From Heliopora coerulea (Eukaryota > Cnidaria > Anthozoa > Scleralcyonacea > Helioporidae), in the NCBI GenBank assembly GCA_030142905.1, contig JASJOG010000341.1, positions 124,001-188,000 on the forward strand: 64,000 bases of DNA. Reading direction: 5' to 3'. Both the position numbers and the translations under genes were made by a program. The notes under the pieces were generated by a model. That model searched no databases, was not told where the DNA came from, and was given only the letters and a program-made list of their open reading frames with translations. Numbering within the stretch: position 1 is the first letter of the stretch; every line of letters starts with the position of its first letter. Below, in pieces: positions 5,401 through 63,366 of this stretch.

Positions 5401-6408
5401 CTCTGCTTGGTATAGGTATTTACAGTACAACATTCATCAGTGAAGAGTTTGACCGGAGAGACCTTGCAAAAGATGGCTCAGAGTTCATTAAGTATTTAGA
5501 CACCTTAGAACATTATTTCACTGATGATCTCAAAGTTGATATAATCCTGGAATCTGGTATAAACTATTCCAATCCTTCCACGCAGCAAAAGATCCTCGAT
5601 CTTTCTCAGATTGTTGCAAGCAATGAGTATTACCGTTCGTATGTCGATTCTTGGTTTACTAACTTTCATAACTGGTCCTCTGGTGAAAACGGTATTATAG
5701 CTGCACGAAGTTTTGTTGCTTCCTTGCAGCAATTTCTGGCCATGTATCCGAGGTTCCGGTCGGATATTTTGTTCACGAAAGACAACCTGACCATTGACGC
5801 TTCTCGTCTCTATTTCTATAAAAAGGAGAGTTCAAGCTCCGTGGTAAGCCGAGATGCCATGACTTCATTGCGAAAAGATCTTTCCGAGAAATCCGACCTC
5901 CCAGTTTTTGCTAGTACTTACGAGTTTATTTTCTTTGAACAATTTGTCTCGACATTGCCAGAAACCATCCGTAATCTGGCGTTGGCGGCTTCATCAATTT
6001 TGGTTGTCACTAGTTTTTTTCTTGTAAATCCCATTGTGGTACTTCTGGTTTTCTTGGGATTCGTGTCGCTGATTTTTGAGCTACTAGGTGAGAAAACCTT
6101 AAGTTTAACATGATAAATTATAGATGCATATCTTACTGAAAAACTTGTAGATATAGATTGTTTTGAGTTCCTTTAATTATGTTTTATAAATTAACATGCG
6201 TCTTGCTGACGCTCTGATTGGACGAGCTTCATTTTCACTCAAATTGCAGCATTGAACACGAAAAAGACTGGAACGATACTTCGTCATATCAGGCCTCACG
6301 ATTGAATGAAATCGACATGGGCGCAGCCATATATATATACATATTGTATATGTATATGTATGTATATATGTACATGTGGATGTGGATGTGGATGAGGAAG
6401 TGTATATG

Positions 6409-6457
<49 letters not shown>

Positions 6458-13580: not shown

Positions 13581-16500
13581 CTACCATGTAAGTGATGTGA
13601 TGCCGCTTAGCATGGCACTGTTAAGAGCCCGCTTTGCTTCCTCCCGAACTTCTTCCCATTCGAACCTCTTGCACACATTATTGAAAGGGTTTGCTGGGTC
13701 CATTACAAGCGGCCTTGAATTAAAAAAAACATATAAAATAAAATAAATAGTAAACATATTAGGACGTTGCTGTTTGAACTGTTAGATCGTCTTCAACAGT
13801 CAATAAACGATAGTTAGGAGCTTTTGCAAACTATTTTTCAAAATACTTAATTCTTTCCACATTTGAATTGAATCGGCGAAGCGTAACCTTGCTCAAGAAG
13901 AAATGTCATAATCTTGGAATATAAGTTTAGAAATGCCGGCAGTCAATTTGGCAACGAGAATATTTTCTTTTCATTCATATTTCTCGGCATTAGCCGTTAT
14001 AAAAATCACTAAACGTTACAGATACTATCACGTTGGCAGACAGTGCTTTTAAAAAACTCATTGAACTTTACTCTGCATATTCAGTATTAAACTTTAAATC
14101 TGCTTTTCTCAAATTTTTAAATTGGTTGGAAAGGATCATTTTTCAAAAATGAAATAAAATTTTTGTTTTTACCGAATCTTATCAAATTTTCAACCTAGAT
14201 AGCGAGCATAACAACCTAGGAACTGAACCTATTAAATCAACTCAACTTAATGTTGAAACACTTCCTAAGATTGTATATTGTGTTGTTACTTTGTCTGAAG
14301 GTTTGAATGTTTTCTGAAATAATTTGAAAAATATTTTGGAGAGCTCGGGAAAGATTTCAGTATTTTAGATTAAGTACCTGAAGTGGCGTTCTGACAATGC
14401 ATTAAAACGTTTAACAAACTTTCCTGACCATTTAGTAGCTGTATATAATGTTTGAAAGTAACAACGCTATTTCACCATTTATCCTGTATTTTTTTGGCTA
14501 CCATGGCAACTGACCAATTGAAGAGATGATTTTCATTGCTGGAATTTGATTTGTTATTACGCCTAGAAACTCATTTCACTTTACAATAAGACTTACGAAA
14601 ATTCATATTTTGAATGTAAGACCACCATAAAGCCTTCGAAAGTTGGGGCTTAATAGGAAAGGGACTAATCAAAGCATTTAGGGTAATTACATGGCCCATT
14701 TTTTCGAGGAAATTTTCATATTAAAAGAACTTATGTTTGAATTTTTTGCAACTTTTGGGCAACTTATGAGTATTTCATTGAGCAACTTTTCCACAAATTA
14801 CTTGCACAATTTATAAGGGCCTTCTCGTGAAACAAAATGAAATCTTGGTTAAATGATTTCCCTTGTACATTTCATTGCTCTAGCTGCGGGAATAATCCTG
14901 AAGATCGAATACGGGTTTTCACCAGAGTTTGTTGAAATCCTGTTTGCTGATAGACGATAGTCTGGTCGCCCCGATTCATTGTCTGATATCTTGATCGCGC
15001 ACGCGTAATACTGATCTGGTGGTATCCACATAAGTTACCGTAACAAAGATGGCGTCCTGCAGGAAGCTGTTGGAAACTTGGAAGGGAACTCGAATACCTT
15101 TACAGGTTTTGAAAGTCTGCGTTTTCGTTCACTATTCTGGTACCAAACGTGACTACTTTTGGTGTATTTCTACTGAATAAAAGGACCCTAGAATTTTATC
15201 CAGCGATACGAAGTGGAAATGAGATTCAACTTGAAAATTATCTACAACGCTCTCCTAAAACAAATTGAAGCAAAGGTGTTGACAATCTGTATTTCATGGT
15301 AGTCTTTGTTTCTTAATAGAGTCTTGCATATAGGTTCATGAAGTCTAATGCTTATGCGTTTTTCTGCTGTTCTATAAAGGACTGGTTGGCTTCGATGTTG
15401 GAAATTTTGTTACTTCAAAACAAGGGGTACGTTCAGCTGTCCTCAGCACAACTGACAATAATGAACTGTGTGACGGCATGTTATTTTGGCAGATTGAAAA
15501 TTGTAAGGAAATCTGGCGATGTCGCTCATGTATTGTTAATCTTGGTTCAAATCATTTTTTAATACGTTTCTGAGGCCTGTAGCCAGCCTGCCATGCTAAG
15601 AGGGACAATAAATTATCTAATGGGGCTCATAACATATGGACACAACTCAAATTTACAGTCAATGAACTACTAGTATTTCCTAGGCAAGTGTGAAAGAAGA
15701 AAAATATATTTTATTCAGTACGTTAGAAAATACACCTTTTGCTGTTAATTGCCGGAAAATATACTATCATTAACGTCAACCTCAAAGTCAGTAACGCATA
15801 TCGATGTTTCCCCAATAGTCTTAACTTTTAGCTGACCCATTTTAATTTCAGCATAGACCATGAATCTGTAGATCCGTCATCACAATCCAAAATAGGTCGA
15901 AATGCTTCCACCACATAACATTTAAGACATTACAGTAAGTCAATTCTAAGACAACTCCACTTTTTGAGGACATAATACCAACTCTAACAAACATCTCAAC
16001 TTTCTTTATGAGGGACTTAAATTCTGTTTGGGGAATTGAGTACCCTAATTCCCCCACCCCCTCTTGGCTACGGCCATTAGGGATAATAGAATTTCAATTA
16101 AGAATTGAAAAGAATTTAGAATTTCAATTTTATTGGTATTTCTCTTGCGTAATTGAAATCTCATTATCCCTAATGCATAATAGAATGGCGTCAATGGTCG
16201 TCTGCTGGCGCTATGGAATGCTCTTTGGTGCAAATGGTTGCGTATCTACGCTAGTGAATGTCAATTAAATAAAATGAATGTATTTTTGCGTTAATGAGTT
16301 TGAGGTTGGCGTTAATGATAGTATATTTTCCGGTAATGAACAACAAAAGGTGTAATTTTGACATTTTGTGGAAATAATCAAGGAAGGGGAAAATGCCATC
16401 TCTGACCACCCTTTGCATAGACGCCCATGCTAGGAGTAAATTCTTACCGTTGGTGGCGAATATGAAATGGTATCATATTTTCTGTATAGTTGTTCCTCCA

Positions 16501-18879
16501 AATTACACGTAGGGATTCAACATGAACCAGTGCCTCCATCACACTGTGTAAGGCTTTCACGGTGTCAAAGCGGTAGGGCCTACCTTTACTTTCCCAAAGG
16601 TGAATGACAATCAATTCCAGTACATAGGACGTTGGGAGACGTCTTCCAATTGATGCCCGTCCTACGTATTCTTTACGCCAGTACTTGACAAGGCGAATTA
16701 GATTTTTCACATTCGCTGGAATTGCACTGATGAAGTCCACTTGCATTTTAACCAGAGATGCGCTGTAAAAAGGTAACAGCCAATCTGGACCTTCTCTCAT
16801 TTGCCTGTATACATCTTGTTTGTCTAAAGTGAAGAAAAGATTAAATGCAAACAATTTTTTAAAGATTTACATCAATCTAATTGTGCGCGATTTCATCTAT
16901 AAAATTAACTTATCGTGGTTGTACCTATGAGCAAAGCTTGTCTTCCATGTAACACCTGCGACGGCTGGAATCGTTAAGAGCGCTTTTCATACAACAATTT
17001 TGTTTCCCAGCGGATGAAATTTTAGGAGATACTCCTTTTTCTGAGCATGTACATTACTGTTTATCATTGCTTCCTCTGCAGTGACTTTTCGCGAAGAAAA
17101 AGCCACTAGCGATCGTAATTGCTGTGACCTTTGTTAATATCATTGAGCGTACAACATCCATAAAATCACTGCGGCTGCCAAGTTTGTTTCTCAGTTGTCG
17201 TAAGGACCATAGGGAACCCACCCTTTAGAAATCAAGACTTGCAAATATATACTTCGTTGATTACGTCCGTTCCTTTGCCAAATTTTAGAAAAAATTTTCC
17301 AATCGAGAAACTAGCTGAAAAATGTGACATTAAGATCACAAAGTGTTAAGAGATAAAATGTTTTATATACATTGGCGAACCTCTTCTCCAGTCATTTCCT
17401 ATCTCAATTAAACCTTTGACGACTAATTAATTTTGAGATGTTTGAGGTAAATCCACTTAGCATACGATTTTGCGCAGTATCTTGATTGGAGTTGACGATA
17501 AAAGCCCCACATAAATAGGGAACTGGACCGCTTTTCAAGTATATATCAAAATCAAACTTACCTAGGGTCTTGGAATTTATTATATGGATTTTTGGTTGGT
17601 TTTCCCTCCCATTTTTAACTGATTTTTCTACGTCGGATGTTTCTGTTTTACCTTACCTGGTAAACTGTTCATTTTGCTTTTTGGTTCCTTCAGTTTAACA
17701 CTCATTTATCGTAATTCTGTACAATTAGCTTTAAACAAAACCAGTACCAGTTTAGCAGCGCGTTTAAATTATTTGAAATTTTTCAATTAAATTCTTAATC
17801 CTTTTCAAACTTCATTACAATCAGCTCAAAGATTTTCCCGCCAAAACGTACCGGTCCGAAATAAAAGCCGTACTGGACCGGTCCAGCGTCGTAAAACCGC
17901 GGAGCGTTCAGCAACCAATCAGCGTGCGTAATTTTGCGTACCAAACGGGAAACGAGCTCTTCCTTATGATAACGGTGACTAATGCATATTAATTTACCTG
18001 CAAAGTAAAACGATGGCAGAAGGTCAACCTTTATTTCTTCGGATTCTACTTTCACGGTAAACTGTACCGAAAATCTTGTTTTTGTAATTGTCGGACGAAT
18101 CACGTTGAAACCAAGGTCGTTGGCACTTTTCAGGTACTGCTCAATCTTCTTTTGAATACTTGGCAAACTCTTTTCAAGTTGTGCTGCAGTGTTTATATCG
18201 TTTAAAATAAGAACGAGGTCAATGTCTGCTTTTCCTCTCACTGCAGTTCCTTTGCCCAACGAGCCACCCTAAACGGAGGGAAATCAGTGAAGCTGAAATC
18301 TGTGTAACTTGAGAAACCCCAGAAAAAAACCAAAGAGAATTCTGCTACGGGACGTCCGGGAATCTAGTAAACCGCAAAGCCATCTGGAAAAATGTTAAAA
18401 ATGCAGGTAAGGTATGGGCATACTACTGCTGCATTCGCTTAAATTTATAAAAACCTACTACAAGCTGTGATTGATGAGACTCCCTCTTAATTTCTGGGCT
18501 ATTGCATTTATAACTAGACTTCGTTTTCCGCTTGGTTCTTCAATCTCATCGATACTCTTACACTATTGGAAATTGGTTTACCTCCCTTGTACGAGCAACT
18601 CTTACGTGGATAATAATCAGATTAGAAACAATTTTCACATTGCTATGGCAATGCCGAGAGTATTAATATAGTCTTAAAATATCTTAAATTATTAATGCAG
18701 ATTATTATTAAATCAAAGTACCTTTACAATTTCCTTTGGTGACATCTGTCCTCTGAAGAAACTGCAGATCTTACCCACAGTTTCATACATCATATCATTG
18801 AACTCCTCAGTCGGTTGCAACCTGCTAGCAATGAACCTGTTTAAGGCAACCGCGGTAGTTGGAGAGTTTAGATCAAACT
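13581..18879 (-). CDS. OAS: 2'-5'-oligoadenylate synthase-like protein (5' end incomplete)
   Basis: Nucleotidyltransferase of the OAS family. Family members bind dsRNA and polymerise ATP into 2'-5'-linked oligoadenylates. Exons on the minus strand are 18879-18722, 18268-17998, 16823-16448 and 13713-13581 (stop). All are GT-AG and join in phase to 311 codons plus stop. The first exon ends in a helix segment with IVK. The second opens with GGSLGKGTAVRGK and has the catalytic pair in ADIDL, followed by the third aspartate in IKVDLLPSF. The third and fourth exons form the OAS1_C domain (NLIRLVKYW, YVLELIVIHLWE, DPANPFNNV). OAS-type C-terminal motifs favour OAS over cGAS/Mab21. The N-terminal 30 or more residues must lie upstream because the first exon starts mid-codon; a candidate exon ends at 25127. 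dsRNA dependence cannot be judged from sequence alone. Confidence 0.9.
13747..15726. other. OAS last intron, proximal part, nothing recognised
   Basis: AT-rich intronic sequence. Short open frames on both strands have no splice context or domain that I recognise. Confidence 0.4.
15727..16359. mobile_element. Inverted-repeat element in the last OAS intron, with an inner palindrome
   Basis: Arms of about 75 nt at 15727-15800 and 16285-16359 are near-perfect reverse complements (core gccggaaaatatactatcat). The interior contains a second, separate foldback at 16076-16175. There is no coding capacity that can be supported. It lies in the intron between the last two OAS coding exons. Confidence 0.65.
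16076..16175. mobile_element. 100-bp palindromic MITE-like insert
   Basis: The ends attagggataatagaatttc and gaaatctcattatccctaat are inverted copies around an AT-rich centre (aatttcaatt repeated). It lies inside the larger inverted-repeat element. Confidence 0.6.
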
Positions 18880-19139
18880 CTAAAAGAAAACAAATGTTAC
18901 AACATAGTTAGTTGTTGATTTCAAAAGTCGTGCATAAGGTGATCTTACACGGCACAAATTTTTAACAATGATTTCTAACTAATCATGTGACCGCAAAACA
19001 TTTCGGGAAAAATCATTAGCAAGTATTTTGATGCATGCATAAACATTTTCCGCAACGTTTGCCGCGCTAAAATTCATGGTCAAAAATCATTTCTTGTAAC
19101 ATCTCTCAAAAGCTTTGTCCAAAATCAGTCACTCAGAAA

Positions 19140-19215
19140 TTCTATATAATTATAATTTAATTTAATTATAATTATAACTAAAATTATAATTGTAATTCTA
19201 ATTCTAATTGTAGTT
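19140..19215. repeat. AT-rich TAATTA simple repeat
   Basis: Degenerate taattataatt repeats. The surrounding stretch 18880-20224 has no supportable exon, although the OAS gene may span it as an intron. Confidence 0.7.
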
Positions 19216-20230
19216 ATCACTATGATCCAAATCTATCTAGTTTCGTGTGACATTCTCATTATCATTGGCATGAAAGTAAGTCTATGAGAAATTATAGTTC
19301 ATTATATCTAATAAAAATTAGGTGTGTAACGCAATATACATCCGCAGTTAACTGTTGATGCGGGTCATTATGAAGGTTTAGTTCGTTAAGGTTACTGCAG
19401 AACATGTAATACTATTTCCATCATTTTAAGATGCTTATAACAGATTCCTTACACTATTGCTTCCCTAGTCTCGGTAACAAGGTACGTCGCATGAAAAATA
19501 AGACGATATATTATATGGTTGTGGCAGCAAGCGGTCCGAATTGGGAATACGAAAATCCTGCAATTTGATTGGTTCATAAGTAGTCGGATATTTCCCGTAT
19601 TATCCGCTCAGGGAGGGAAATTTAAAAACGGCTTGCCTGGGTCGAATAAAAATTAAAACTTTTGACGATCTATGTAGTGAAAGTGTATTAAGAACAATCA
19701 GAAAAGTGAAAGTAACCATGTAGGGAGAAGCTATGGAGGAAATTGTTTATGAAATGACGACAGAATTGCAAGTGGTTGTTTGACATTGTGTACCTTTGCA
19801 CTTGTCAGTTATATCTCAGTAAAGCCATATAATAAACTACTTATTGACCTCGCTTGTTCAGTCTGTACTAGTGAAATATCGGGCTTCTGTTTTTGCATGG
19901 TCCGATATTTCCCTAGTAAAGACCTCACGCTCCGTCAACGAATAGTAAATATGCTTCAACTTAGTCTTACTGTAAAGTTCGAGAATCATACTCAGATTTT
20001 CAGTTGAAAATAATTTGATTTGATTTTGAGTGGTGACGCTATTACTGACTAATGGTAAACTCGACTTGGAAGTACAGTCAAAAGGCGTTTTTTGCAGGTC
20101 AACTTGTTGCGAAGGGATAATTTTGGTCTCTTACCTTGAAGCATAATAGACTATGACAGACGAAGCAGAGGAATTGCTTCACTTATGTGATAATGGAGTG
20201 AAAAATGAGCTTTGATTACCTTCATTGCAG

Positions 20231-20668
20231 GCATTCTGCTCGCAATTCACTCCTGTACCAAGTAGACGATGCACGTTTAGCGTTGAAAACTGCGAAGTAA
20301 CTTGGAACAAGCTGTTTTCAGCTCTTGCATACCGTATTGGTGACAAGTACGGCATCACGGGTATTGTTGCAGGTATAATAGCTGCAAAAGAAAAGACAAT
20401 TCATGACCGTCTTCCCTTCAATCTATTAAGCGTTGATGGCATGTAAGATCTGCAATCTCCATTTTGTATAATAAAAACAACAACAACAAAATATATATAT
20501 TTACCACCGTATTACATTATTTACAAGGTATTGAAAAGAACATTCTACTATTTAACAAGGAATTAGGTACATGCTGTTGTTGTTGTGTATAATAGCAGAT
20601 GGTTTGGAGAAGACAAAAGATTTCAAAGAAAGCTCTGCGGGGGATTTATTTTCAATGGCGAAGCAGAA
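20231..20668 (+). CDS. Possible two-exon fragment of an unknown protein
   Basis: An acceptor (ttcattgcag) precedes an open exon at 20231-20443 that ends at a GTAAGA donor. A second acceptor (aatagcag) at about 20598 opens an exon that joins in phase and reaches a stop near 20666-20668. The joined frame has about 95 residues, with a hydrophobic patch (GITGIVAGIIAAKEK), and ends in FNGEAE. I do not recognise the protein, and no start codon or upstream exon was found. It lies on the strand opposite OAS, perhaps inside its first intron. It may be a chance combination of splice-like sites. Confidence 0.25.
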
Positions 20669-21261
20669 TGAACAGGTAATTTTAAATTTTTCACAAGATT
20701 TTTGATACTTGCTAGATAGAGTACCTAAAACTAATATGTTTTCAGCATTGAAGTTGGCAAAACACCATATTTATACCATCTATTTTTGGCTGTTACGTAG
20801 ATGACCATCGATTGAGTTCTTCTCAGAACATATTACTCCTCCAGAAGGACAAATTAACAAAACTATGTGGATAAATGAGTAAACGTGAGTTGAAGCATTG
20901 TTGTTAGTTAAACTAATTCCATGCTCAATGTTCCATTATTCCAGAATGTTTAATTATATTCATTCCGGGCGATCGGTTGATGCGCTGCTGTGGTGTACGC
21001 AGGGTTTATGGTCAGGGCGGACAAATCAGAGACATGAATTATGTTAGTAGAATTCGTAAACCTATTCAAGTCTGAAAGTTCGAACACTTTACCACCGTAT
21101 AGATCCTTATCTAAAATCCATCAAATCGCACAATAATGTTTGGGTCATGTTAATCCATGCAGTTAAAAAAATTGCGAGAAGTGTCAAGACACAACAACTG
21201 CGATAGAGTAAGATTAGTTCATTGTTATGCAGTAACTTGCAATAATTTTGGAAAAAGGCAC

Positions 21262-21532
21262 GCCGCCAAGAGCGGATTTAGGACTTCGGGGAAGGGGGAG
21301 TGTCCCAGGCCAGTTGGAGTTCCAGGTTTTTGAGATGCCATGCCTTTAATTATTGTAGCTTTTTAAGGGATGATGGTTCCTTATCACCTATCTAAGGTGC
21401 ACAATTTACGAAAACAAAAGATGAGAGTCAAGTTCAATATGTAAACACGGAGATTATGGCGAGGAATCCCAACATTGTTTTGTGGCTCAAGAGGAGGTGT
21501 TAAACCCCCTTAACCCCACTTGGATCCGCCAC
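21262..21532. mobile_element. hAT-like MITE, copy 2
   Basis: Begins near gagcggatttagga and ends near ggatccgccactg. The interior matches the 11.56 kb element block by block (ccaggtttttgaga, caagaggaggtgttaaa). Non-coding. The flanking sequence 20670-21261 has nothing recognised. Confidence 0.55.
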
Positions 21533-21863
21533 TGGCCACGCACTGATGGAGAAAGTGGGAAAAGTGACAATCGCGAGCAACCTATTGGAAATGATGTAAA
21601 CTGAATCCTATTTTCACCATTATCTAGGGTTTCACTTACTCGCATACGATGGCATGACATAAATCAAAACGGGGGAAAAATTTGGTCTGAGGTTTTATTG
21701 AAAACACTCGTAGGTAAATTAAAACCTCAACGGTCGTGCTTCCATGACACATTTGATGTTTGATCGTTCGTGGCAACTTCCACAAGGACTACTTTAGAAT
21801 TCTAAGCAGGATTCGAAACCGTCAGGGGAGTTGGTTTCCCCCCCTGACATCCCATCGGGTACA

Positions 21864-22184
21864 CTACTGATGCACTGTACTCCAACGCTGGTGGACGATT
21901 TTCGTGTAAGAAAGCAAAATAAAATGAGACCCACCGTGTTTATCTCTTGAATGCTGCGACAAGTGACACTGACGGACAAAAGCTCTAGGGCAGGCAGAAC
22001 AATGGTAGTTGCACGATGAAGGATGACTTCGCGAGGTGTGTTTATATAAATGGTACGGATTCGTGCGACAACATCCAGGCACAACACAGCCTCGCTGACC
22101 GATGCTGTGAGAGTTGACGTGATTTAAAGCTACTTCGACCTGGGAAAACTGTTGATTGCAGGCGGGACAACAATAATTGGACAT
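21864..22184 (-). CDS. C2H2 zinc-finger coding exon
   Basis: The minus-strand frame opens MSNYCCPACNQQF nine bases after an acceptor (ctctttcag). It encodes three zinc fingers in about 80 residues: C-P-A-C with H-x3-H, C-x4-C with H-x4-H, and C-S-A-C with H-x4-H. A possible GTGGGT donor at 21934 would end the exon after the third finger. If unused, the frame stops at 21864. No partner exon was identified. It could be a small host gene or the N-terminal part of a retroelement protein. Function beyond likely nucleic-acid binding is not claimed. Confidence 0.5.
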   Translation of the reverse strand: MSNYCCPACNQQFSQVEVALNHVNSHSIGQRGCVVPGCCRTNPYHLYKHTSRSHPSSCNYHCSACPRAFVRQCHLSQHSRDKHGGSHFILLSYTKIVHQRWSTVHQ

Positions 22185-28150: not shown

Positions 28151-28236
28151 ATTTATTCACGCACTGCTTGGAAGCAACTAAACCCCCACGTACAAAGTGA
28201 TTAAAGTAATTATTAAGATCTCTGTTTTAAACAAAT

Positions 28237-31200
28237 CTAGCTAGTATCCGTGTTTTCTTGTGGAGTTGATTTGCGGCAAACATCGCTCTTTCTTGGGTCT
28301 GTGCCTACTGTAAGGGATACTGTGGGTTCCAAACGAAGCTCAAGCTCGACAATTCTATGTTTAAAGGTATCGCAGACATAGAATATCCCGTTACGGTCGT
28401 GGACTAAACCAGATGGATGGTCAAAACCACCCACACAGCAAATGTGTTCACCTGCAGTGGTAAGTACATGCACTTTGTCGTCGTAGAAGTCAGATACAAC
28501 CATATATTGTTCGTATATAGCAATCCCCCAGCACTCTATGAAGCTATGCTCCTTTGAGAGTTCCTGTCCAATACAGCGCACAAAATTCCCATCTTTTGAG
28601 AACACATGGATTCTGCTACCGATGGTGTCAGTAACAAAGATGTTGTCTTCCTTGTCAAAAACTGCATTTTCGTAATGTGTCTTCTGAACCTTGCCTGAAC
28701 CACTCTCGCTAATCTCGAACGTCCCATCACGATCCAACATTACAATCCGCTCGTTTCCGGCATCACAGACAAAAATCAGGCCTTTGCTGTTTATTGCGAT
28801 TCCCTCTGGTGTCCTGAAGTTTCTTCCATTAGCTTGCGTTATAATGGTCGTTTCACCTGTTGTACGATCAAGAATCTTTACGCAATTTTCTCTTGGCTCT
28901 GAAATAATAATCTCTCCCTTATGGCTAAAGGCAACACATCTCGGAGAATTAAGGCTTTTTGAGCTGGCCACTGTTCCTATGTAGTCTCCATTCTTAGCCA
29001 TTCTTATCAAACGATTGTTGTTCTTATCTGCAACAATAAGCTCATCTTTGTCGCTCTTACAAACACCCCATATGCAGTGAAGACTTCCCACTTTTTCATT
29101 TGGTCCAACGAGTGTATTAGTGGCAACAATCTCTGTACGAAAAACGAAATACAATCACCCGAAAAACAAGATATTATTGGCCAAAACGAAAACAATCGCG
29201 TAGAATAAACTGAGAAATCTGGCGTAATAACTGGTATTTCAATATGGACGAAGTAGCTGTTTTAGTTAAGAAATAGAAACTGTTTTGCCGTGTTTATGTA
29301 ACCTGATGCAAGCACAAGAAGAAGGTTGGGAGAGACCGAAAACTGTTGTGTAGGCCAGAGACCGAAAATCGAGGGCTTAAACGGCTTCTTGAGAGTTCTC
29401 CCAACCTCTCTGAGTGTTTGCATCAGGCTGCATAAACACAACAAAAACAGTTTCTGTTTCTTTTATAAAATAAGCAAAGAACTAAGCAACAATTATTGTC
29501 AATAACGAACTTTATTTCCAATATCAAATGGGACGTTTTCTATATTAGTTCGTAAACAAATCAGAGGTTCCCACTCGCGGCAAGAACAAGTTCTGGCATG
29601 AGTAAGCCAATCTGAGCTTCACATTCGTGCCAGGAACAATTACTTGTGTCAATGTAAATGTTTCCATTCGCGTCCGGAACTGATACTGGCGTCATGGGGT
29701 GCCTGTAATGTCATAACCGTGTTCGCAAAGAACAAATAGAAAATTGCTCGAGTGTCTCTGTGCTGTGATAGAAACATGAATTACATTTCAACTGGAAAAA
29801 CGCCAAGTGAAAACACGAGGCGTAACCGAGTGTTTTCTAGGTTTTTTTCCCCTTTGAAATGGCTTCATGAATATTTAATTCTATCACAGTACAGAGACAC
29901 AAAATCTATCTTTTATTTGTGTTGTAAAATAACCTAGGATTTCTCGAGTTTTCTTGACGTCAATCATATCTCTATACTTTAATACAAAATGAAAATGACG
30001 TCAGCCGTGTCTCTGTACTCTGAGAGAAAATGAGGCTCTTTCAATCAGAGCGTGCGTAGGACACGTGTTACTTTATAAAACGTATTATAATATGCCTGAG
30101 CTTGTCTTTTGGTCCATGCGCCGGCCTCCTCTTTCGAAAATTTCACATTACTTAACTTATAGAAACAGTATTTCACATGTGAAATTTTGAACAAGGTCAT
30201 TTCACATGTGAACTTGGTATTTCATATGTGAGCAAGTTCCGATTTCATAATTATAAAATGAAAACTTCATATGTGAAAATTATCCAATTCCATGTGTTTT
30301 CACCCGTGAAATAACAAAATATCTTCAAGGGTCCGTCCACTGATTGGTTGCTGGCAGTCCTTGAAATTCTCGCTCTTCCGTATCTTCCAAATGTACATGA
30401 ACCTTACACTTACTCATAACATTTAATCATGGTAACTTTTCAGACAGAACGGTTTTTAAATGGCGTGTTAACTCGCACTTTCACAGCTAAAGTTACGCCT
30501 GGTTTACACGCGTGAACATCAGTGTAAACATAAGTACAGAACAAAAGGCAAAACAGAGGAATGAAGTCAAGCCTGCAACATAAGGATCGTCGTAATCATA
30601 AGCATAAAATCATAGTTCAAGCATAAGCCAAGAGTCGAACAAAAGATGAAACAAAGAAAAATTCTTGGTTTTTTTGTTGTTGCAAGTCTCAGAGGAGATA
30701 TGCTTTGTTTTTGTGCTTGTCTTGTCCTTTTGCTTTTGTTGCTCGTGTTAACCAGGTTTTAGTGTGAATATGGAGCAAATCTTGAGCGATCTTGTTAAAT
30801 GCTGTCAGGAGCTCATCTGCCCCCTGTCTTGAGACAAAAGATATTTTAATTTAGCGAGTTCTTTCAATATAATAAATATTCAACTGAGATGTTCATTGAA
30901 TTAGGAACTATACGAAAAAATTGCCGTTGGCCTATTTGCCGCAAATTTTTTGCGTCAACTTGAGGGCTATGGCCCCTCGCATCCCGGCCCGTTCATCTAT
31001 GACGGTAACCTCATGAAAATTCCACATGCCAGATTTCGTATATGAAATTGAGACATGAGAATGACAAGCCACGGTGTAAAACATGTGTAATTTTCTTTTA
31101 TATGAAAACTGAACATGTGAGAAGACTTAAAAATGAGAAAAGTTACAACTCTTAAGTTTACATATGGGGAACTAAAAACATATTTGATCTTTGCACGTGT

Positions 31201-33466
31201 GATCACATGTGATCGCATGATATCGCATGTGTAAAATCACGTAAAATTTTCGTAAGGTAAGTCACTTACGCAAACAACGCCCGTTGCTCTCGAAAGTCTG
31301 CCTCTTGTCGTCATTCTGCAATTCCTGCAATGATATCGAAAAAACCAAACATTATTTAGGTTTTGAAATTTTTAGTCTCATTGAAAATTTTGTGAGCAGC
31401 TACATTAAATTAAAACGAAGAAAAGTTAAGTATGCGCTGAACTAATGTAAGACCAACCAAAGAATTACATACATGTATTCATATATACATATATACCTAT
31501 ATACAGCAAATTGCAAAAATTATAACACAAAACATATCAACATAAAAACATATCAAAACCATTGTATCTCCATTTTATTCTCACTTCAACGATCAGTGAA
31601 GATTTGCTATGTGTTTTTTGGTACATTATTTGGCCATTCTCTAATGTATTAAGGTTTATTAAAGTATTCATAGTTACAGATTTATCTATACATGCTTTTT
31701 TTAACGATATCTTTAGGTTTGCCAAAATTTATGCAATTTGCTGTACCTATATACCTATATTCCTATATACACATTTACACATATACACGTATATATATCT
31801 ATATATGTATACATCTAAAAATCTACACATCTATACATCTATGCATATCCATATAAATAATCATTTACACATGCATACATATACATATACATATACATGT
31901 ACATGTACATATAAAGATATCATTGTTACTAATTCGGATGTCATTGCTTTGCCTTCAAATCCAAACTACTTTACTGGTCAGATTTTAGGAATTGCATAAT
32001 TGCTAGTTTTATGATATTTATGTGAATATATGATGTACTCAACACACGATATCTGATCTGAACGTTATTTTGAAATAAAAAACGTCAGAATATCGGAATA
32101 TTTAAGTGCTTCTTTGAAACAATTGACTTGCACTTACCCGGAATTTGGGGAAGTCACATTCTGGATAAAACTCTCGTAATTTGACGTCATCTCTCCACGG
32201 TACCGCGGCCTTATATGTATGCAAAAGTAACTGAGGAAAGCTCTTGGTAAACGAGTGTAAACATTTGTGAAAATGGTCTTCTGATTCATCAAGACTTCGT
32301 AGAGGACCTACATTAAAACCCTTTGAATCACTCCCACCATGGTGTACCCAGTGATTTCTGATAACTCTAATAAGTTCCGAGACGTGCTCGGCACCGACTT
32401 CAAACGGACCGCTTCCTTTCGTTCGTTTCACAGGTTTCTGGTAATTCTTGTACCGACGTCTGAGTTCCGTGTCTAATTGGGAGAGCCAGTTGCCTTGAAT
32501 AACTTTCTTTTTATCTTTATCAAGTCTGGCCCGCAATCGTTGGGAGGCATCAAATCTGTGGTTCATTGAACGAAGACTTTCAGTGCAGTCGCCCACCACC
32601 TTGTAGAATTGGAACTGCCGGTACGCTGACCAGAAGAATGGATGCTTCACGACATCTCGGGCGTCAGGTCGCAACTCTGGATTTTTGTCCAAAAGATGGA
32701 ACAACAAGTCTTTTGCCAGAACGCCGTCTTGATCTGATTCACCAATCATTTTAAGGTCAAGCTCCACACCCTCTTTGGTACCATACGCTTTAATGCGTTG
32801 CTGGGCTTCCTGAAGTTTATCTGGAACAATCTTCGAATGGCAAGAAAACGGATGTGAACCATGAGTCAGGACATAATGTACAAGGAGTCCAAACGAGAAA
32901 ATGTCCGCCTTTCTCGTCAGTCGGTGTTCACATTCGTGAAAGTACTCAATTTCTGGTGCTATCCAGCCAATCGTTCCACCAAACGTTCTTGTCCTTATGG
33001 ATTCCTTTCCATCATAGACTTTCTTACTCACTTCGAAATCCGCCAAAACAACCCTTTTTTGGATACCACACGATATGAGAATATTACTTGGCTTTAAGTC
33101 TAAGTGATAGATGCCATTTCGATGAATGTGTTCAAGACCAAGTGCAATCTGCTTCACAGCCGTCTTTTGATCCAGTCCACCGCGGTCAAACCTTGGATCT
33201 TCGACGAAATCGCAGAGATTTCCACTGCAAAGCTCAAGGTAAATGAAGCAGTAAGGATCTTGCTGTTCGATTAAAAAGTAGCGGATGACATTCTCGTGTT
33301 GTTTGTGCTTCGATAGTTCAATAAGTTTATTGACTTCGTTTATGTCTGTAGTCCCAGTGATTACTCTCTTTACAGCTGCAACTCGTCCATCGTTCATGGT
33401 GCGTTTAAAAATGAGAGAATACCCATCCAAAGATCCAGCAAGCGTTTCATCGCCTGCTTCTGCCAT
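28237..33466 (-). CDS. Kinase-KEN endoribonuclease fused to NHL propeller, copy A
   Basis: Predicted RNA-cleaving stress or immune effector. Exons: 33477-32138 (first in-frame ATG at 33466), 31324-31270 (55 nt) and 29132-28237 (stop). GT-AG sites join in phase to at least 759 residues. Residues about 10-279 are a protein kinase fold: AVKR (K33), HLDLKPSN (D123) in place of HRD, ADFE (D143) in place of DFG, and GWIAPE. HPFFW at 275 starts a KEN RNase domain as in IRE1 and RNase L, with RNHWVH at 370-375 keeping the Arg-Asn and His spacing of the known active site. KEN ends near 440. An 18-residue linker is followed by about 297 residues of NHL repeats ([37 protein letters not shown]), probably a six-bladed propeller. 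There is no membrane helix, so it is not a full IRE1. An acceptor lies 11 nt before the ATG, so upstream exons are possible. Confidence 0.82.
29140..31269. other. KEN-NHL copy A intron: mobile elements and palindromic motifs
   Basis: The intron between the linker and NHL exons holds a short inverted pair at 29280-29450 (ctgatgcaa / ttgcatcag blocks), ttcacatgtgaa palindromes at about 30165-30310 and 31010-31235, and a MITE at 30497-30757. Nothing coding is supported. Confidence 0.5.
30497..30757. mobile_element. MITE with gcctggttyacac ends, copy 1
   Basis: The ends gcctggtttacacg and cgtgttaaccagg are inverted copies. The interior (gaatgaagt, aagcctgcaacataag, catagttcaagcataagcc) matches the element at 38502-38763 nearly base for base. 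Non-coding. Confidence 0.65.
31440..31920. repeat. ATACAT/TATACC microsatellites in KEN-NHL copy A intron
   Basis: Two tracts of atatac, acatct and catata units at about 31468-31505 and 31738-31915, in the intron between the KEN exon and the linker exon. The plus-strand open frame across them is compositional. Confidence 0.8.
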
Positions 33467-40640: not shown

Positions 40641-41334
40641 GTTTGTAATGTTAATTGTAGCAATTTTCTTTCCATTAACGTTGGGAATTCAATGTTTGCA
40701 CGAAAACGAGAAGAACAAATAGTGTTCCAGTAGTTGTATTCAGCTGACGTAATAAGGCAAACAGACTGTTCTATAACTTTTATTTTTTTAGGAGGTAGGA
40801 GATTCACCTCCCATTCGCTCTTTGGTTTCTCCTTACTCACCCTCTTCCAAAGTAAAAAGCTCGATTTAGAACTATGTCTGGTATCTGGGTCTTATGCATC
40901 CGATGATCGGTAGGAGAGAGTTTCAATCTTAGTTGAAGGTTCTCTAATCTTCAAGTACCATTGCTCAAAACCTATATCCTGTCAGAGAATTTCATAACGA
41001 AAGCATTTGAGGAATCACATTTTTGACGCGATACTCTCGTTCTCTCAATACAATATTCCATGCATGACTCACATGCTGCTGAGATAACTACTAAATCATA
41101 AGGACGGAAGGGGAACTACGGTTTTCTTTGTGGCGACTTGAACTGATCAAATTCAGTACCAAACATTTTTGTCCACGATTGTTGGCATGGAAACGACAAT
41201 GATGGTTGCCAAGTGACTTCCGGTCGTACTTATCAGTTATCTTGCTGGTAAGTTAATAACCTCAAGGCCGAAGACCACGGTGCAATATTTAAGAAAGGTT
41301 ACCGTGATATTGTATCGGTTTTAGTTCCACAAGG

Positions 41335-41799
41335 ATGGCTTATCAAGAGCTTAAAGCTGTTACAAACAAAGACATTGGTCGTTTTACGTTCAAAGGTAAA
41401 CGAACCAATGCGAAGGTGATTCATATTCACGACGGAGATACTTGCGACTTAGTATTCGAACACAATGGCGAATTGATGAGATTCAAATATCGTTTGGCCG
41501 GCGTAGACACCCCGGAGCTTGGAATAAAGGACATTCTAGGTCGGGATGCAAGGATAGCCCGTGATTACTTGGCTCACCTCAGTACTGGTGAGGATCCTAA
41601 CGATTTTGACGATGAATATGGTTCGTTAAAGAAATCTGAACTACAAGAACATTTGGATAAGAACAAGAAATTGGTCTATGCAACATTTGGTGATTTCGAT
41701 AAGTACGGAAGGCCACTCGTTACATTAAAGAGTCCAAAATCGATGAAAAAATCGTTTAGTGGTTGGCTTGATGACGAAAGATATGTAAAAGTAGAGTAA
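41335..41799 (+). CDS. Staphylococcal nuclease-like protein (154 aa), gene 1
   Basis: Single-exon gene for a small SNase (thermonuclease, OB-fold) domain protein. Family members cleave DNA or RNA using calcium. The core begins VIHIHDGDTCDL (residues about 29-40). KYRLAGVDTPEL near residue 58 supplies the arginine and glutamate matching Arg35 and Glu43 of the bacterial enzyme. FDKYGRPLVTL supplies the Arg87 counterpart. The ATG follows ttccacaagg. A tttag acceptor 14 nt upstream and a GTAAGT at about 41250 hint at a short 5' UTR intron. No signal peptide is seen, so it is probably intracellular. A diverged, equally long relative lies at 54113-54577 on the other strand. Both sit next to kinase-KEN-NHL copies. 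Confidence 0.85.
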   Translation: MAYQELKAVTNKDIGRFTFKGKRTNAKVIHIHDGDTCDLVFEHNGELMRFKYRLAGVDTPELGIKDILGRDARIARDYLAHLSTGEDPNDFDDEYGSLKKSELQEHLDKNKKLVYATFGDFDKYGRPLVTLKSPKSMKKSFSGWLDDERYVKVE

Positions 41800-47350: not shown

Positions 47351-48044
47351 AAATCTCTTATTTCTTCACGTTATTCTCTACTCCTAGAGGCAAGTAAAAC
47401 GTTGAAACTCACACGTGTAAAGTTATCAAAATCATTATTAAAATCTCTGCTTTAAACTAATTTAGGAAGTATCTGTATCCTCTTGCGGATTTGATTTGCG
47501 GCGAACATCACTTTTTCTTGGATCTGTGTCTGCTGCACGCAAAAGCATAGGTTCCAAACGTAGCTCAAGCTCAGCAATTGTATGGTTGTAAGTGTCGCAG
47601 ACGTAGAATATTCCGTCATGGTCGTGAACTATACCAGAAGGATGATTTAAACCACCTACACAACAAATATGCTTACCAACTGTGGTAAGGACATGCACCT
47701 TGTCATTGTACCAATCAGAGACCACAACATATTGATCATATATTGCAATCCCCCGGCATTCAGCGAAGCTATGTTCCACCGAGAGTTCAGGCCCAATGCA
47801 TCGTATGAAATTACCATCTTCTGAGAAGACCTGGATTCTATTGAGAACCATGTCGGTAACATATATGTTACCCTGCTTGTCAAAAGCTGTATTCAAACAA
47901 TGTTCCATTGATCTAGTGCCGACCCCTCCTCGCCAATATCGAATTGCCCATCACCACTCAACATCACTATCTTATGATTTCCGGTATCATAGACAACAGC
48001 TTGACCCTTGTGGTTTATAGCAATCTCATGTGGTATCTTGAAAT

Positions 48045-48497
48045 TTTTTCAAATAATAAAACAGCGATTTTGTCGTGGTAACAAATTTAAACACAGTTTT
48101 TAAATACGTAGATACCAAGGTGATTGGTAATTTAAGATAGAGTAGGAGAAGATGAAGAGTAATATACGCTTTAAAGAGGTATACAAAGACTGTTGGATAG
48201 TTTAGTTCTTAAGAAAACTGATGACATCGACCCATATGTTTCTTTAGTTAGCAGACGTATAGCACTTGATAAGTGGTCTGCTGAAATGCATCGTGCTTTT
48301 TTCTAATTCATTAGGCTTATTCTTTACGTAGAATTTTACCTCTTTAAGTTTCAAGTAGTTCTTTTAAGAACTAAACTATCCAACAGTCTTTGGTAACTGT
48401 GTATACCTATTTAAAGCGTATATTACTCTTCATCTTCTCCTACTCTATCTTAAATTACCATTCACCATGGTATCTACGTATTTAAAAACTATCTTGA
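48045..48497. mobile_element. Foldback element inserted in NHL exon of copy B
   Basis: Arms of about 130 nt (core taagatagagtaggagaaga and its inverted copy) surround an AT-rich centre. Short flanking repeats (atcttgaa) lie at both ends and match the uninterrupted sequence of copy C. It splits the propeller frame. Confidence 0.85.
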
Positions 48498-49089
48498 AGT
48501 TCCTTCCATGCACTTTCGTTATAATGGTCGTTTCATCTGTCATCGCATCAAGAATCTTTATGCGATTTGCCCTCGGCTCGGAAATGATAATCTCTCCCTT
48601 ATGGCTACAGGCAATATTTGTAGGAAAATTAAAGCTCTCTGAGCTGGCCACAGTTCCGATGTAGTCTAAATTCTTGGCCATTCTTATCAAACGATTATTA
48701 TTCTTATCCACAACGATAAGCTCATCTTTGTTACTTATACAAAGGTCCCATATTCGATGAAAACATCCTACTTCCTTACTTGGTCCAATGAGTTTATTGG
48801 TGATAACATATCTGAATAATGAAAAGTATTCAATCGTTAGAAGGAAGGAAAACGTCATCCAAGTCATTCAAGACGTACAAGGTGATTTGATTGCGGAACT
48901 AATACATTCCTGTGCCAGTCAATCCATTGTTATAACCTAAACGTTTAAAGATTTGCTCGTTCAAGAAACTTCTTGCTTGGATTATGCTTCCAGTTGTTTG
49001 AGGATACAAACGTTTTATTTTGTGTCTTTTTCATACATCTTATTTTCTAAATCCATGCATGACGAAAATCCTATTACAAAATTAACGTT

Positions 49090-50160: not shown

Positions 50161-50613
50161 TCCCTTCTTTTCGCTCATACAACTTATAATTGATTCTTAC
50201 ATTTAAGTCACTTACTTTATAAAGTCATTCCACTCGTTTGCTTTTTTTTATTCGTTCCGTCAGTCGGTCGTTCATCCGTTCGATCGTTAGGTCATTCAGT
50301 CGTTCGTTCGGTCGTTTGATCGTTCGCTCGTTAGTTCTTTAGTTTGTTTCCAAATTCGTTCGTTCATTTATCTTCAATATGTTTTGTAACACCTAGTAAA
50401 GAGGCTGGGTGGTCACATTTAGTATCGTTATTCTCCCTGTCTTAATGAATTACAAATAAAATCTAGCTAGCCCAAAAAATGTAGATTTTTTTTTAATCTC
50501 AGAGCCCAAGAATAAAATTTAACCCGATAACAAGTCACTTACTCAAAGAAAATCTGTTGCTTTCGAGAGTCTGCAACTTGTGATCATCCTGTAGTGACTG
50601 TAACAATTCAAAA

Positions 50614-51430: not shown

Positions 51431-52599
51431 TATGTATAAAATCAACTTAAATAAACTTAAGTCAGGAGTGTTACTTTAAACGTTGATTGTATTGATCCTT
51501 TTGAAAAATAAATTATGACCAAATTAAATGTGCATTAATTTCCATAAAGTGTAGAATATTACAGTGCTCGCTCACTTACACCTACTCAAAATTTTGGGAA
51601 GTCTCCTTTTGGATAAAATTCCCGTAATTTGACGTCATCTCTCCAAGGAACAGCGGCTTCATACGTGTGCAAGAGCAATTGGGGAAAGTTCTTGGTAAAT
51701 GAATCTAAACTTGTGTAACCAGTGTTTTCTGATTCATTGGGGCTTCGCAGAGAACCCACATCAAAAACTTTTTGATCAGCCTCGGAATAATGTCTCCAGT
51801 AATTTCTGATTGCCTTAATAAGCTCAGAGATGTGCTCAGCACCAATTTCAAACCGACTACTTTCTTTGCTGAGTTTCACAGGTTTCTGGAAATTCTTGTG
51901 AGAAAACAGATGTGAACCATGAGTCAGGACATAATGTACAAGGAGTCCAAACGAGAAAATGTCCGCCTTTGTCGTAAGTCGGTGTTCACATTCGTGAAAG
52001 TATTCAATTTCTGGTGCTATCCAGCCGATCGTTCCTCCAAATGTTCTTGTCCTTATGAACTCCTTTCCATCGTAGACATATTTACTCACTTCGAAATCCG
52101 CCAAAACAATCCTTTTCCGGCTTCCACACGATATAAGAATATTACTTGGTTTTAGATCTAAGTGATAGATGCCATTTCGATGAATATGTTGAAGACCAAG
52201 TGCAATCTGCTTTACAGCCGTCTTTGATCCAGTCCACTGCGGTCAAAGCTTGGATCTTCGACGAAATCGCAGAGATTTCCACTGCAAAGCTTAAGGTAAA
52301 TGAAGCAGTAAGGATCTTGCTGTTCGATTAAAAAGTAGCGGATGACATTCTCGTGTTGTTTGTGCTTCGATAATTCAATAAGTTTATTGACTTCGTTTAT
52401 GTCTGTAGTCCCAGTGATTACTCTCTTTACAGCTGCAACTCGTTCATCGTTCATGGTGCGTTTAAAAATGAGAGAATACCCATCCAAAGATCCAGCAAGT
52501 ATTTCATGGCCTGCTTTCGCAATGTCTACAACAGCTGAATGAATTATCTATTTTGCACTGTTTATTGTGGTTGTCGTTTTCGTTCGGGTGGCGGCAAAA

Positions 52600-60991: not shown

Positions 60992-63366
60992 TTAGGAAGT
61001 ATCTGTATCCTCTTGCGGATTTGCTTTGCGGCGAACATCACTTTTTCTTGGGTCCGTATCTACTGCACGCAAAAGCATAGGTTCCAAACGTAGCTCAAGC
61101 TCAGCAATTGTATGGTTGTAAGTGTCGCAGACGTAGAATATTCCGTCATGGTCGTGAACTATACCAGAAGGATGATTTAAACCACCTACACAACAAATGT
61201 GCTCACCAACTGTGCTAAGGACATGCACCTTGTCATTGTAGTAATCAGAGACCACAACATATTGATCATATATTGCAATCCCCCGGCATTCAGCGAAGCT
61301 ATGTTCCACCGAGAGTTCAGGCCCAATGCATCGTATGAAATTACCATCTTCTGAGAAGACCTGGATTCTATTGAGAACCATGTCGGTAACATATATGTTA
61401 CCCTGCTTGTCAAAAGCTGTATTCAAACAATGTTCCATTTGATCCAGTGCCGACCCCTCCTCGCCAATATCGAATTGCCCATCACGATCCAACATCACAA
61501 TCCTATGATTTCCGGTATCGCAGACAACAGCTTGACCCTTGTGGTTTATAGCAATCCCATGTGGCATCTTGAAGTTCCTTCCATTCGCTTTCGTTATAAT
61601 GGTCGTTTCGCCTGTCATCGCATCAAGAATCTTTATGCGATTTGCCCTCGGCTCGGAAATGATAATCTCTCCCTTATGGCTACAGGCAATATTTGTAGGA
61701 AAATTAAAGCTCTCTGAGCTGGCCACAGTTCCGATGTAGTCTCCATTCTTGGCCATTCTTATCAAACGATTATTATTCTTATCCACAACGATAAGCTCAT
61801 CTTTGTCACTGATACAAAGGTCCCATATGCGATGAAAACATCCTACTACCTTACTTGGTCCAATGAGTTTATTGGTGATAACAATATCTGAATAATGAAA
61901 GGTATTCAATCGTTAGAAGAAAGGAAAACGTCATCCAACTCATTCAAGACGTACAAAATGATTTGATTACAAAACTAATACATTACCATGCCAGTCAATT
62001 CATTGTTATAATCCAAACATTTAAAGATTTGCTAGGATTATACTTCCAACTATTTCAGGATGTCAACGTTTTATTTTGTGTTTTTCATACATCTTATTTT
62101 CTAAATCCAGGTATGACAAAAATCCTATCCCAAAATTAACGTTAACATCAAAAACTTTCTTTCTTTCTAAAATTCGTTCGTTCTTTCTTTCTCTGTTTTA
62201 TTTCTTTCTCTGTTTTATTTCTTTCTCTCTTTCTTTCGTTCTTTGTTTCTCTCTTTTCTTTCTTTCTTTTCTTTCTTTCTTTTCTTTCTTTCTGTCTTTT
62301 CTTTCCTTTCTTTCTCTCTTTTCTTTCCTTCTTTCTTTTCTTTCTTTCTCTCTTTTCTTTCTTTCTCTCTTTTCTTTCTTTCTCTCTTATTCCTTTCTCT
62401 CTTTCTTTCTTTCTCTCTTTCTTTCTATCTTTCTTTCTCTCTTTCTTTCCTTCTTTGTTTCTTTCTTTTTTTCCTTCTTTCTTTCCTTCTTTCTTTCCTT
62501 CTTTCTTTCTTTCCTTTTTTCTTTCTTTCCTTCTTTGTTTCTTTCTTTTTTTCCTTCTTTCTTTCCTTCTTTCTTCTTTCCTTCCTTCTCTCTTTCCTTC
62601 TTTCTTTCTTTCTTTCTTTCCTTCTTTCCTTCTTTCCCTCTTTCCTACTTGCCTCCTTTTTTTCTTTCCTTCTTTCCTTCTTTATTTCTTTCCTTTTTTC
62701 TTTCTTTCCTTCTTTCTTTCTTTCCTTCTTTTTTTGCTTTCCTTCCATCATCCCTCCCTTCCTTCATTTATATCATGCTTTGTTCCTCCCTCCCTCCCTT
62801 CCTTCCTTCCTTCGATCCTTCCTTCCTTGCTTCCTTTCTTGTCCTACTTCCTTCCTTCTTTCTTTCTATCCTCTCTTCTTTTTCTTTTTTTCCTTTCTTC
62901 CTTCCTTCCTTCTTTTCCTTATTCCGCTTCTACCATTCCTTCCCTTCGTTTCGTTCATAAAATTTATAATTGATTCTTACATTTACGTCACTTGATAAAG
63001 TCATTCCGCTCGTTTTCCTTTTTTTTATTCGTTCGGACAGTCGGTCGTTCATCCGGTCGATCGTTGGGTTATTCATTCGGTCATTCGATCGTTCGTTCGT
63101 TAGTTCTTTAGTTTCTTTGCAAATTCGTTCGTTCATTTATTTTCAATATGTTTTGCAAAACCTAGTAAAGAGGCTGGGTGGTCACATTTTAGGGTCGTTA
63201 TTCTCTCAATCTCAATGAATTACAAATAAAATCTAGCTAGCCCAAAAAGGTAGATTTTTTGTTGATCTCAGAGTCCAAGAATAAAATTTAACCCAATAAC
63301 AAGTCACTTACTCAAAGAAAACCCATTGCTTTCAAAAGTCTGCCACTTGTGATCATCCTGCAGTGA
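60992..63366 (-). CDS. Kinase-KEN-NHL copy C, linker and NHL exons (5' part off window)
   Basis: Linker exon 63366-63312 (55 nt) and NHL exon 61887-60992 (stop), joined by GT-AG sites in the same phases as copy A. The NHL exon is fully open, with about 298 residues of propeller repeats ([52 protein letters not shown]) and the same tail as copy A (DTDPRKSDV, then QEDTDTS). It lacks the frameshifts and the insertion of copy B. The kinase-KEN exon should lie beyond the window end, past the CATTAY array, so whether the full gene is intact cannot be seen here. Confidence 0.82.
62155..62930. repeat. CTTT/CCTT pyrimidine tract (copy C intron)
   Basis: About 775 nt of variable (ctttc)n/(ccttc)n within the intron between the linker and NHL exons. 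All long frames across it are compositional. Confidence 0.93.

Follow-up and report, generated by a model that had tools for sequence, protein, structure and literature searches.

A predicted kinase-KEN endoribonuclease with a C-terminal NHL propeller, encoded beside an OAS gene in Heliopora coerulea

The stretch of Heliopora coerulea DNA described here, the window, comprises 64,000 nucleotides (nt) of contig JASJOG010000341.1 (assembly GCA_030142905.1, positions 124,001 to 188,000). Its minus strand carries a gene, here called copy 1, whose predicted spliced product is a single protein in which a protein kinase domain and a KEN endoribonuclease (RNase) domain are followed by an NHL propeller. 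Further copies of this gene and a gene for a zinc-finger OAS lie on the same strand (Table 1).

Organization of the gene

The gene model of copy 1 consists of three exons. The open reading frame (ORF) that holds exon 1 (33508-32102, minus) matches Pkinase (PF00069, 8.2e-36) and Ribonuc_2-5A (PF06479, 9.7e-10) in Pfam, while the one that holds exon 3 (29154-28237, minus) matches NHL (PF01436, 1.4e-21). In searches of the PDB, exon 1 matched IRE1 at 4e-46 and exon 3 matched NHL proteins. The middle exon is flanked by an acceptor (ttgcag/GAATTG) and a donor (TTTGC/GTAAGT), and the NHL exon begins at an acceptor at 29132 (tacag/AG). Once joined, the three exons form a single open frame of 759 codons from the ATG at 33466 to the stop at 28237. 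The original prediction, made from the letters alone, had proposed a kinase plus KEN exon with RN-x3-H spacing, then a 55-nt exon and an NHL exon in matching splice phases. The Pfam matches, the motif and the joined frame bear this out, as does the recurrence of the 55-nt-exon peptide in the homologue P0001 described below.

The exon 1 frame is open for 14 codons 5' of the ATG, up to 33508, where it closes at a possible acceptor. A hidden N-terminal sensor exon was considered and is not supported, as the relatives P0001-P0004 begin at the same Met as the gene model. An in-frame stop in copy 2, 8 codons ahead of the aligned start position, also speaks against such an exon, although that copy is a pseudogene, and a 5' coding exon keeps a small probability. 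Because retention of intron 1 would end the protein after 11 extra in-frame codons, a kinase-KEN-only isoform is possible.

Table 1. Positions in the window of the kinase-KEN-NHL copies and the neighbouring OAS gene
Feature	Positions	Strand	Remarks
Copy 1, exon 1, kinase and KEN	32138..33466	-	443 codons from ATG 33466; donor CGG/GTAAGT
Copy 1, exon 2, 55 nt	31270..31324	-	Linker and entry to first propeller strand; peptide present in P0001
Copy 1, exon 3, NHL propeller and C-terminal tail	28237..29132	-	Stop at 28237
Copy 1, AATAAA, candidate poly(A) signal	28152..28157	-	About 80 nt past the stop
Copy 1, RN-x3-H, KEN active-site motif (RNHWVH)	32342..32359	-	Motif kept in 5/5 aligned family kinase-KEN sequences
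Copy 1, region matching IRE1 RNA-reading element and catalytic Tyr	32384..32440	-	12-residue insertion (9 in P0001)
Copy 2, kinase-KEN exon, pseudogene	51589..52562	-	
Copy 2, 55-nt exon	50543..50597	-	
Copy 2, NHL exon, in pieces	47462..48811	-	
Copy 3, 55-nt exon	63312..63366	-	In frame with its own NHL exon
Copy 3, NHL exon, intact	60992..61887	-	PF01436 2.9e-23
Zinc-finger OAS gene	13584..22184	-	OAS1_C 9.4e-31; NTP_transf_2 1.2e-4
OAS exon, C2H2-like zinc finger, N-terminal	~22184-21909	-	Ends are alignment ends
OAS, further exons	18879-18722, 18268-17998, 16823-16448, 13713-13584	-	Exon mapping

Relatives and the domain order

The homologue search covered 5.8 billion proteins and listed at least 84 matches from 7,996 candidates. 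The match that bears most directly on the gene model is P0001, a protein of 764 residues encoded by a 3,029-base contig, which shares 67% identity over 99% of the 759-residue model. The kinase, KEN, 55-nt-exon peptide and NHL of P0001 all lie in one intronless frame, which implies that some relative has a spliced mRNA of the kinase-KEN-NHL type or a copy derived from such an mRNA. PF06479 was found in at least 19 of the 84 listed matches, and only P0001 among the matches listed also has NHL; the anticipated combination of kinase, Ribonuc_2-5A and NHL in one protein was thus recovered there. P0002 (97% identity), P0003 (85%) and P0004 (67%) possess the kinase and KEN only. Their tails depart from P0001 immediately past the end of exon 1, and the C-terminal tail of P0002 is exactly the 11 read-through residues of intron 1 of copy 1. 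These tails are read as genomic read-through into intron 1. A further search, based on the KEN region of P0001, scored 408 candidates and listed P0001-P0004 only.

According to the original prediction, no described kinase-KEN-NHL protein was known, and this has stood so far. Literature searches pairing NHL with KEN, IRE1 or RNase L showed no paper on such a fusion among those listed. In the available portions of a 2013 survey of HEPN proteins, the line on KEN gives ankyrin, CCCH, UBI and BRCT as partners with no kinase-KEN-NHL order, and the term NHL is absent from the main text as available (PMC3710099). Viral contigs scanned with P0001 gave no match, with near records possibly outside the scan. 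Matches to bacterial defence systems in PADLOC (best 25 of 33 per protein) were to the kinase or the propeller only; NCBIfam matches of the protein were likewise confined to one or the other, and all fell under the family cut-offs. On present sequence comparisons, kinase-KEN-NHL is a new domain order built of known parts. It belongs to the kinase-KEN enzymes, and the protein is neither IRE1 proper nor RNase L proper.

Paralogous copies

The claim that the arrangement is repeated in three paralogs stands for the 55-nt exon, which recurs before all three NHL exons. It does not hold for intact genes: one copy is intact, one is a pseudogene and the kinase of the third lies outside the window. In copy 2 (52562-47462), a pseudogene, the frame is shifted, about 391 nt are deleted, the donor carries a TGA and the NHL is broken. 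Copy 3 (63366-60992) has exon 2 and NHL inside the window, and its kinase lies beyond the window edge.

When a 221-nt query in which the exon occupies positions 97-151 was compared with the window by blastn, the paralog matches spanned positions 101-162 (82%) and 103-162 (78%). Both consist of the 55-nt exon and about 11 nt on its donor side, ahead of each NHL copy, and the sole further match was 23 nt elsewhere (E 0.038). In all three copies AG precedes the exon, and the donor after it is of the GTAAGT type or close to it. Because it recurs ahead of both other NHL copies, the 55-nt exon is, on this evidence, no chance match.

The ratio of nonsynonymous to synonymous substitution (dN/dS) for the NHL of copies 1 and 3 is 0.22 over 297 codons, and since this ratio is low the propeller is, by this measure, maintained by selection. 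The NHL piece of copy 2 gave a dN/dS of 0.17 against copy 1 and 0.64 against copy 3 (154 codons each); the latter value fits a decaying copy 2. Where the kinase exon begins, copies 1 and 2 share 93.5% identity across some 648 nt (33490-32843 vs 52547-51901), but only 73-81% in KEN and NHL, a difference that suggests gene conversion in their 5' part.

The kinase-KEN region

In both the window protein and P0001, the protein kinase domain runs directly into Ribonuc_2-5A/KEN. The HEPN RNase motif R-x4-6-H is present as RNHWVH, and its R, N and H and the Trp are kept in all five aligned family sequences. The kinase motifs are HLD and DFE in place of HRD and DFG. Hydropathy peaks at 1.05, too low for a membrane-spanning segment, and the sequence of the kinase-KEN-NHL protein revealed no N-terminal sensor domain. 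Ankyrin repeats gave no match in the two exons (E 0.1) or in P0001 (E 0.001), and RING and B-box domains gave no Pfam match in the window exons or P0001, where kinase-KEN precedes NHL. These features, like the domains and their order, are read directly from the sequence.

The NHL propeller

The NHL repeats form a six-bladed propeller in the predicted structure of P0001. Relative to P0001, identity is 78.2% in the kinase, 63.2% in exon 2, 58.6% in the propeller and 48.3% in the C-terminal tail. The propeller is the fastest-diverging of the three domains, as a sensor might be. The three propellers examined are net acidic, with isoelectric points (pI) of 5.47-5.95. The C-terminal tails of copies 1 and 3 have pI 6.2-6.3, and that of P0001 is basic (pI 10.4).

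The OAS neighbour and other features of the window

The next gene found 3' of kinase-KEN-NHL, on the same strand, encodes an OAS. The gap of 6.05 kb between them was examined for ORFs. The OAS protein matched OAS2 (4.9e-53) and OAS1 (4e-28) in the PDB, and it possesses OAS1_C and a nucleotidyltransferase core with GGS and three Asp aligned with OAS1, which we take to be the catalytic residues. Of the 102 relatives listed from 715 candidates, the best 12 include nine proteins of Dendronephthya gigantea and one of Paramuricea clavata, which are 45-53% identical to it. By this comparison the neighbour is an octocoral-type OAS, and its position beside a KEN nuclease, in this one instance, is suggestive.

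The literature on early animals gives this position some interest. A 2018 survey covered 12 lower metazoans, four of them sponges and Nematostella one of the other eight; in its available portions OAS is reported present and RNase L not found in 12 of 12, and ancient OAS are inferred to be regulators whose product is made without double-stranded RNA and does not act via RNase L (PMC6307210). Genes detected in the Nematostella response to poly(I:C) include homologs named RNase L and OAS1, according to the available part of that study (PMC8476169). As far as the two sources could be consulted, they differ over what counts as RNase L.

Elsewhere in the window, two staphylococcal-nuclease-like ORFs with an HDGDT motif (41308-41799 plus and 54706-54113 minus) lie between copies 1 and 3. 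They have weak NCBIfam matches to EcnA (1.2e-4 and 5e-5) and no Pfam match at 0.01. The second was considered as an extra domain of copy 2 and rejected, as it has its own stop about 1.5 kb upstream. Two related groups of transposase-like ORFs (45891-43631 and 59273-56891, minus), hAT-like by eye, lie between the KEN copies; 44785-43631 gave no Pfam match. A Patched-like gene occupies 3897-7139 on the plus strand, with a sterol-sensing domain (PF12349, 2.5e-37) in 3897-6113.

Proposed mechanism and alternatives

The reading that we prefer, and to which we give an even chance, is that the protein is a soluble IRE1-type RNase that cuts RNA once its C-terminal propeller is engaged. What we infer is a latent monomer at rest, whose propeller would gather kinase-KEN units by binding a ligand or a partner protein. 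The propeller would be the counterpart of the IRE1 lumenal domain or the RNase L ankyrin repeats, at the opposite end of the protein. Once paired and loaded with nucleotide, the kinases would bring two KEN domains into register, and these would cleave RNA by Arg-Asn-x3-His. With no catalytic Tyr and an insertion in the RNA-reading loop, the enzyme would probably cleave more slowly than IRE1 and have different RNA preferences. The OAS neighbour suggests but does not prove a trigger in the form of an OAS product or of double-stranded RNA from viruses. The protein would likely cut RNA during stress or infection, and its role is perhaps antiviral.

Several observations weigh against this reading. 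The catalytic Tyr, Y1043 in yeast, is present in none of the five family sequences and in all 16 other aligned rows. In the available portions of the yeast Ire1 study, which is also the basis for naming the region of the insertion after the RNA-reading element, the Y1043 hydroxyl contributes about 10-fold; this residue also helps RNA binding, so that its loss beyond Phe is potentially far more disruptive (PMC3149027). The change of HRD to HLD makes kinase activity uncertain. KEN alone is diverged, matching IRE1 at E 3.4e-5 and RNase L at E 0.12. In the model of P0001, the 55-nt-exon stretch is mostly below 50 in predicted local distance difference test (pLDDT), as are residues 349-357 and 383-399 (KEN) and 437-461 (hinge); the model thus defines neither the insertion nor the placement of the propeller relative to KEN. 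The joining of kinase-KEN to NHL in the Heliopora gene is a prediction from genomic DNA alone, P0001 may have arisen as a retrocopy from spliced mRNA, and the adjacency to OAS is one instance.

These losses could indicate that the RNase is degenerate and that kinase-KEN is a scaffold or RNA-binding dimeriser in a protein which signals via the propeller. The missing Tyr, HLD, the loop insertion and the pseudogene state of copy 2 all fit such a protein. However, R, N, H and W are kept in all five sequences, and in yeast Ire1 the motif His accounts for most of catalysis, as far as the source is available (PMC3149027), and degeneracy is quite unlikely. Two separate genes, with kinase-KEN stopping in intron 1 and the NHL exon in another transcript, would agree with the in-frame stop 11 codons into that intron and with the ends of P0002-P0004, which resemble intron read-through tails. 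Yet P0001 contains every domain and the 55-nt peptide in one frame of a 3,029-base contig, and all three copies retain the 55-nt exon with splice-type flanks, which makes separate genes most improbable. The original prediction had named transcripts ending after KEN as contrary evidence; P0001 speaks against such a division, and what survives of it is the possible short isoform, with P0002 ending in intron 1 residues. It had further proposed that the propeller places the RNase on RNA or on a protein. The first half, in which docking on particular RNAs as in Brat and TRIM71 would determine target choice and not activation, is weakened by the net acidic propellers, whose pI is that of the whole domain and not the charge of the top face, and by the tails of copies 1 and 3, which are not basic; it is now quite unlikely.

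The kinase-KEN-NHL protein could also be the effector of the neighbouring OAS. Once activated by double-stranded RNA, OAS would make a 2'-5' oligonucleotide or similar product that binds the propeller or kinase pocket, and a KEN dimer would cut RNA, in an RNase L-like pathway with the propeller replacing the ankyrin repeats. The position of OAS 6.05 kb beyond the KEN-NHL stop on the same strand, its three Asp aligned with OAS1, the missing effector implied by the survey, which as available records OAS in all 12 sponges and lower metazoans but RNase L in none (PMC6307210), and the Nematostella homologs in the accessible part of the poly(I:C) study (PMC8476169) favor such a role. Against these stand the single instance of linkage, the absence of the ankyrin repeats by which RNase L binds 2'-5' oligoadenylate, and the inferred dsRNA-independence of ancient OAS outside RNase L, again from the survey as available (PMC6307210). 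Moreover, ten Dendronephthya OAS entries were listed, yet no Dendronephthya protein is among the 84 listed matches to the kinase-KEN-NHL model, which hints that OAS needs no such partner. A role as OAS effector is unlikely, and a general octocoral pathway without RNase L is slightly more so. In that pathway the zinc-finger OAS would sense double-stranded RNA and control RNA cutting by way of an oligonucleotide, which kinase-KEN-NHL would read, its propeller standing in place of ankyrin repeats. Nevertheless, the protein is a concrete candidate for what OAS signals to in animals in which RNase L has not been found and, if this is true, would be the missing OAS effector in animals that lack RNase L.

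Comparison with known systems

In a tree of 20 rows with no RNase L row, the kinase-KEN-NHL family is recovered as a single clade (100/100) whose branch is long (2.1). This clade sits inside a 17-row group with the IRE1 rows, where the branching is not resolved and the origin of the family is not placed. P0020, P0025 and P0026 stand apart from this group on a long branch, and the program warned that long branches meet. P0025 and P0026, to which P0020 is related, combine kinase-KEN with ankyrin repeats in Pfam, but these are N-terminal, unlike the NHL described here. Four Daphnia proteins (P0005, P0015, P0017 and P0021) possess ankyrin repeats and an IRE1-like kinase with no KEN call in Pfam.

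The NHL proteins TRIM2, TRIM3, TRIM71, Thin and Brat differ in their RING, B-box and coiled coil, which are not present here, where the propeller is net acidic. Bacterial PknD is similar in possessing a kinase with a C-terminal NHL propeller, and its structure 1rwi was matched at 6.8e-17. However, PknD is a membrane-spanning protein without KEN. IRE1 (ERN1/ERN2) possesses a lumenal domain and a membrane span; here there is neither, and an NHL propeller follows KEN instead. IRE1 also has the catalytic Tyr, HRD and DFG, in contrast to the absent Tyr, HLD, DFE and insertion of 9-12 residues in the RNA-reading loop. RNase L is similar in being a soluble kinase-KEN protein, and the gene neighbour here is OAS. 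In RNase L the HxD motif has a residue other than Arg at x, as does HLD. RNase L differs in its N-terminal ankyrin repeats, in place of which the present protein has a C-terminal propeller, and in the weak match of KEN alone. Activation of both IRE1 and RNase L starts from N-terminal sensor domains. An extra domain after KEN would show that a kinase-KEN RNase is able to take on a new input at its opposite terminus.

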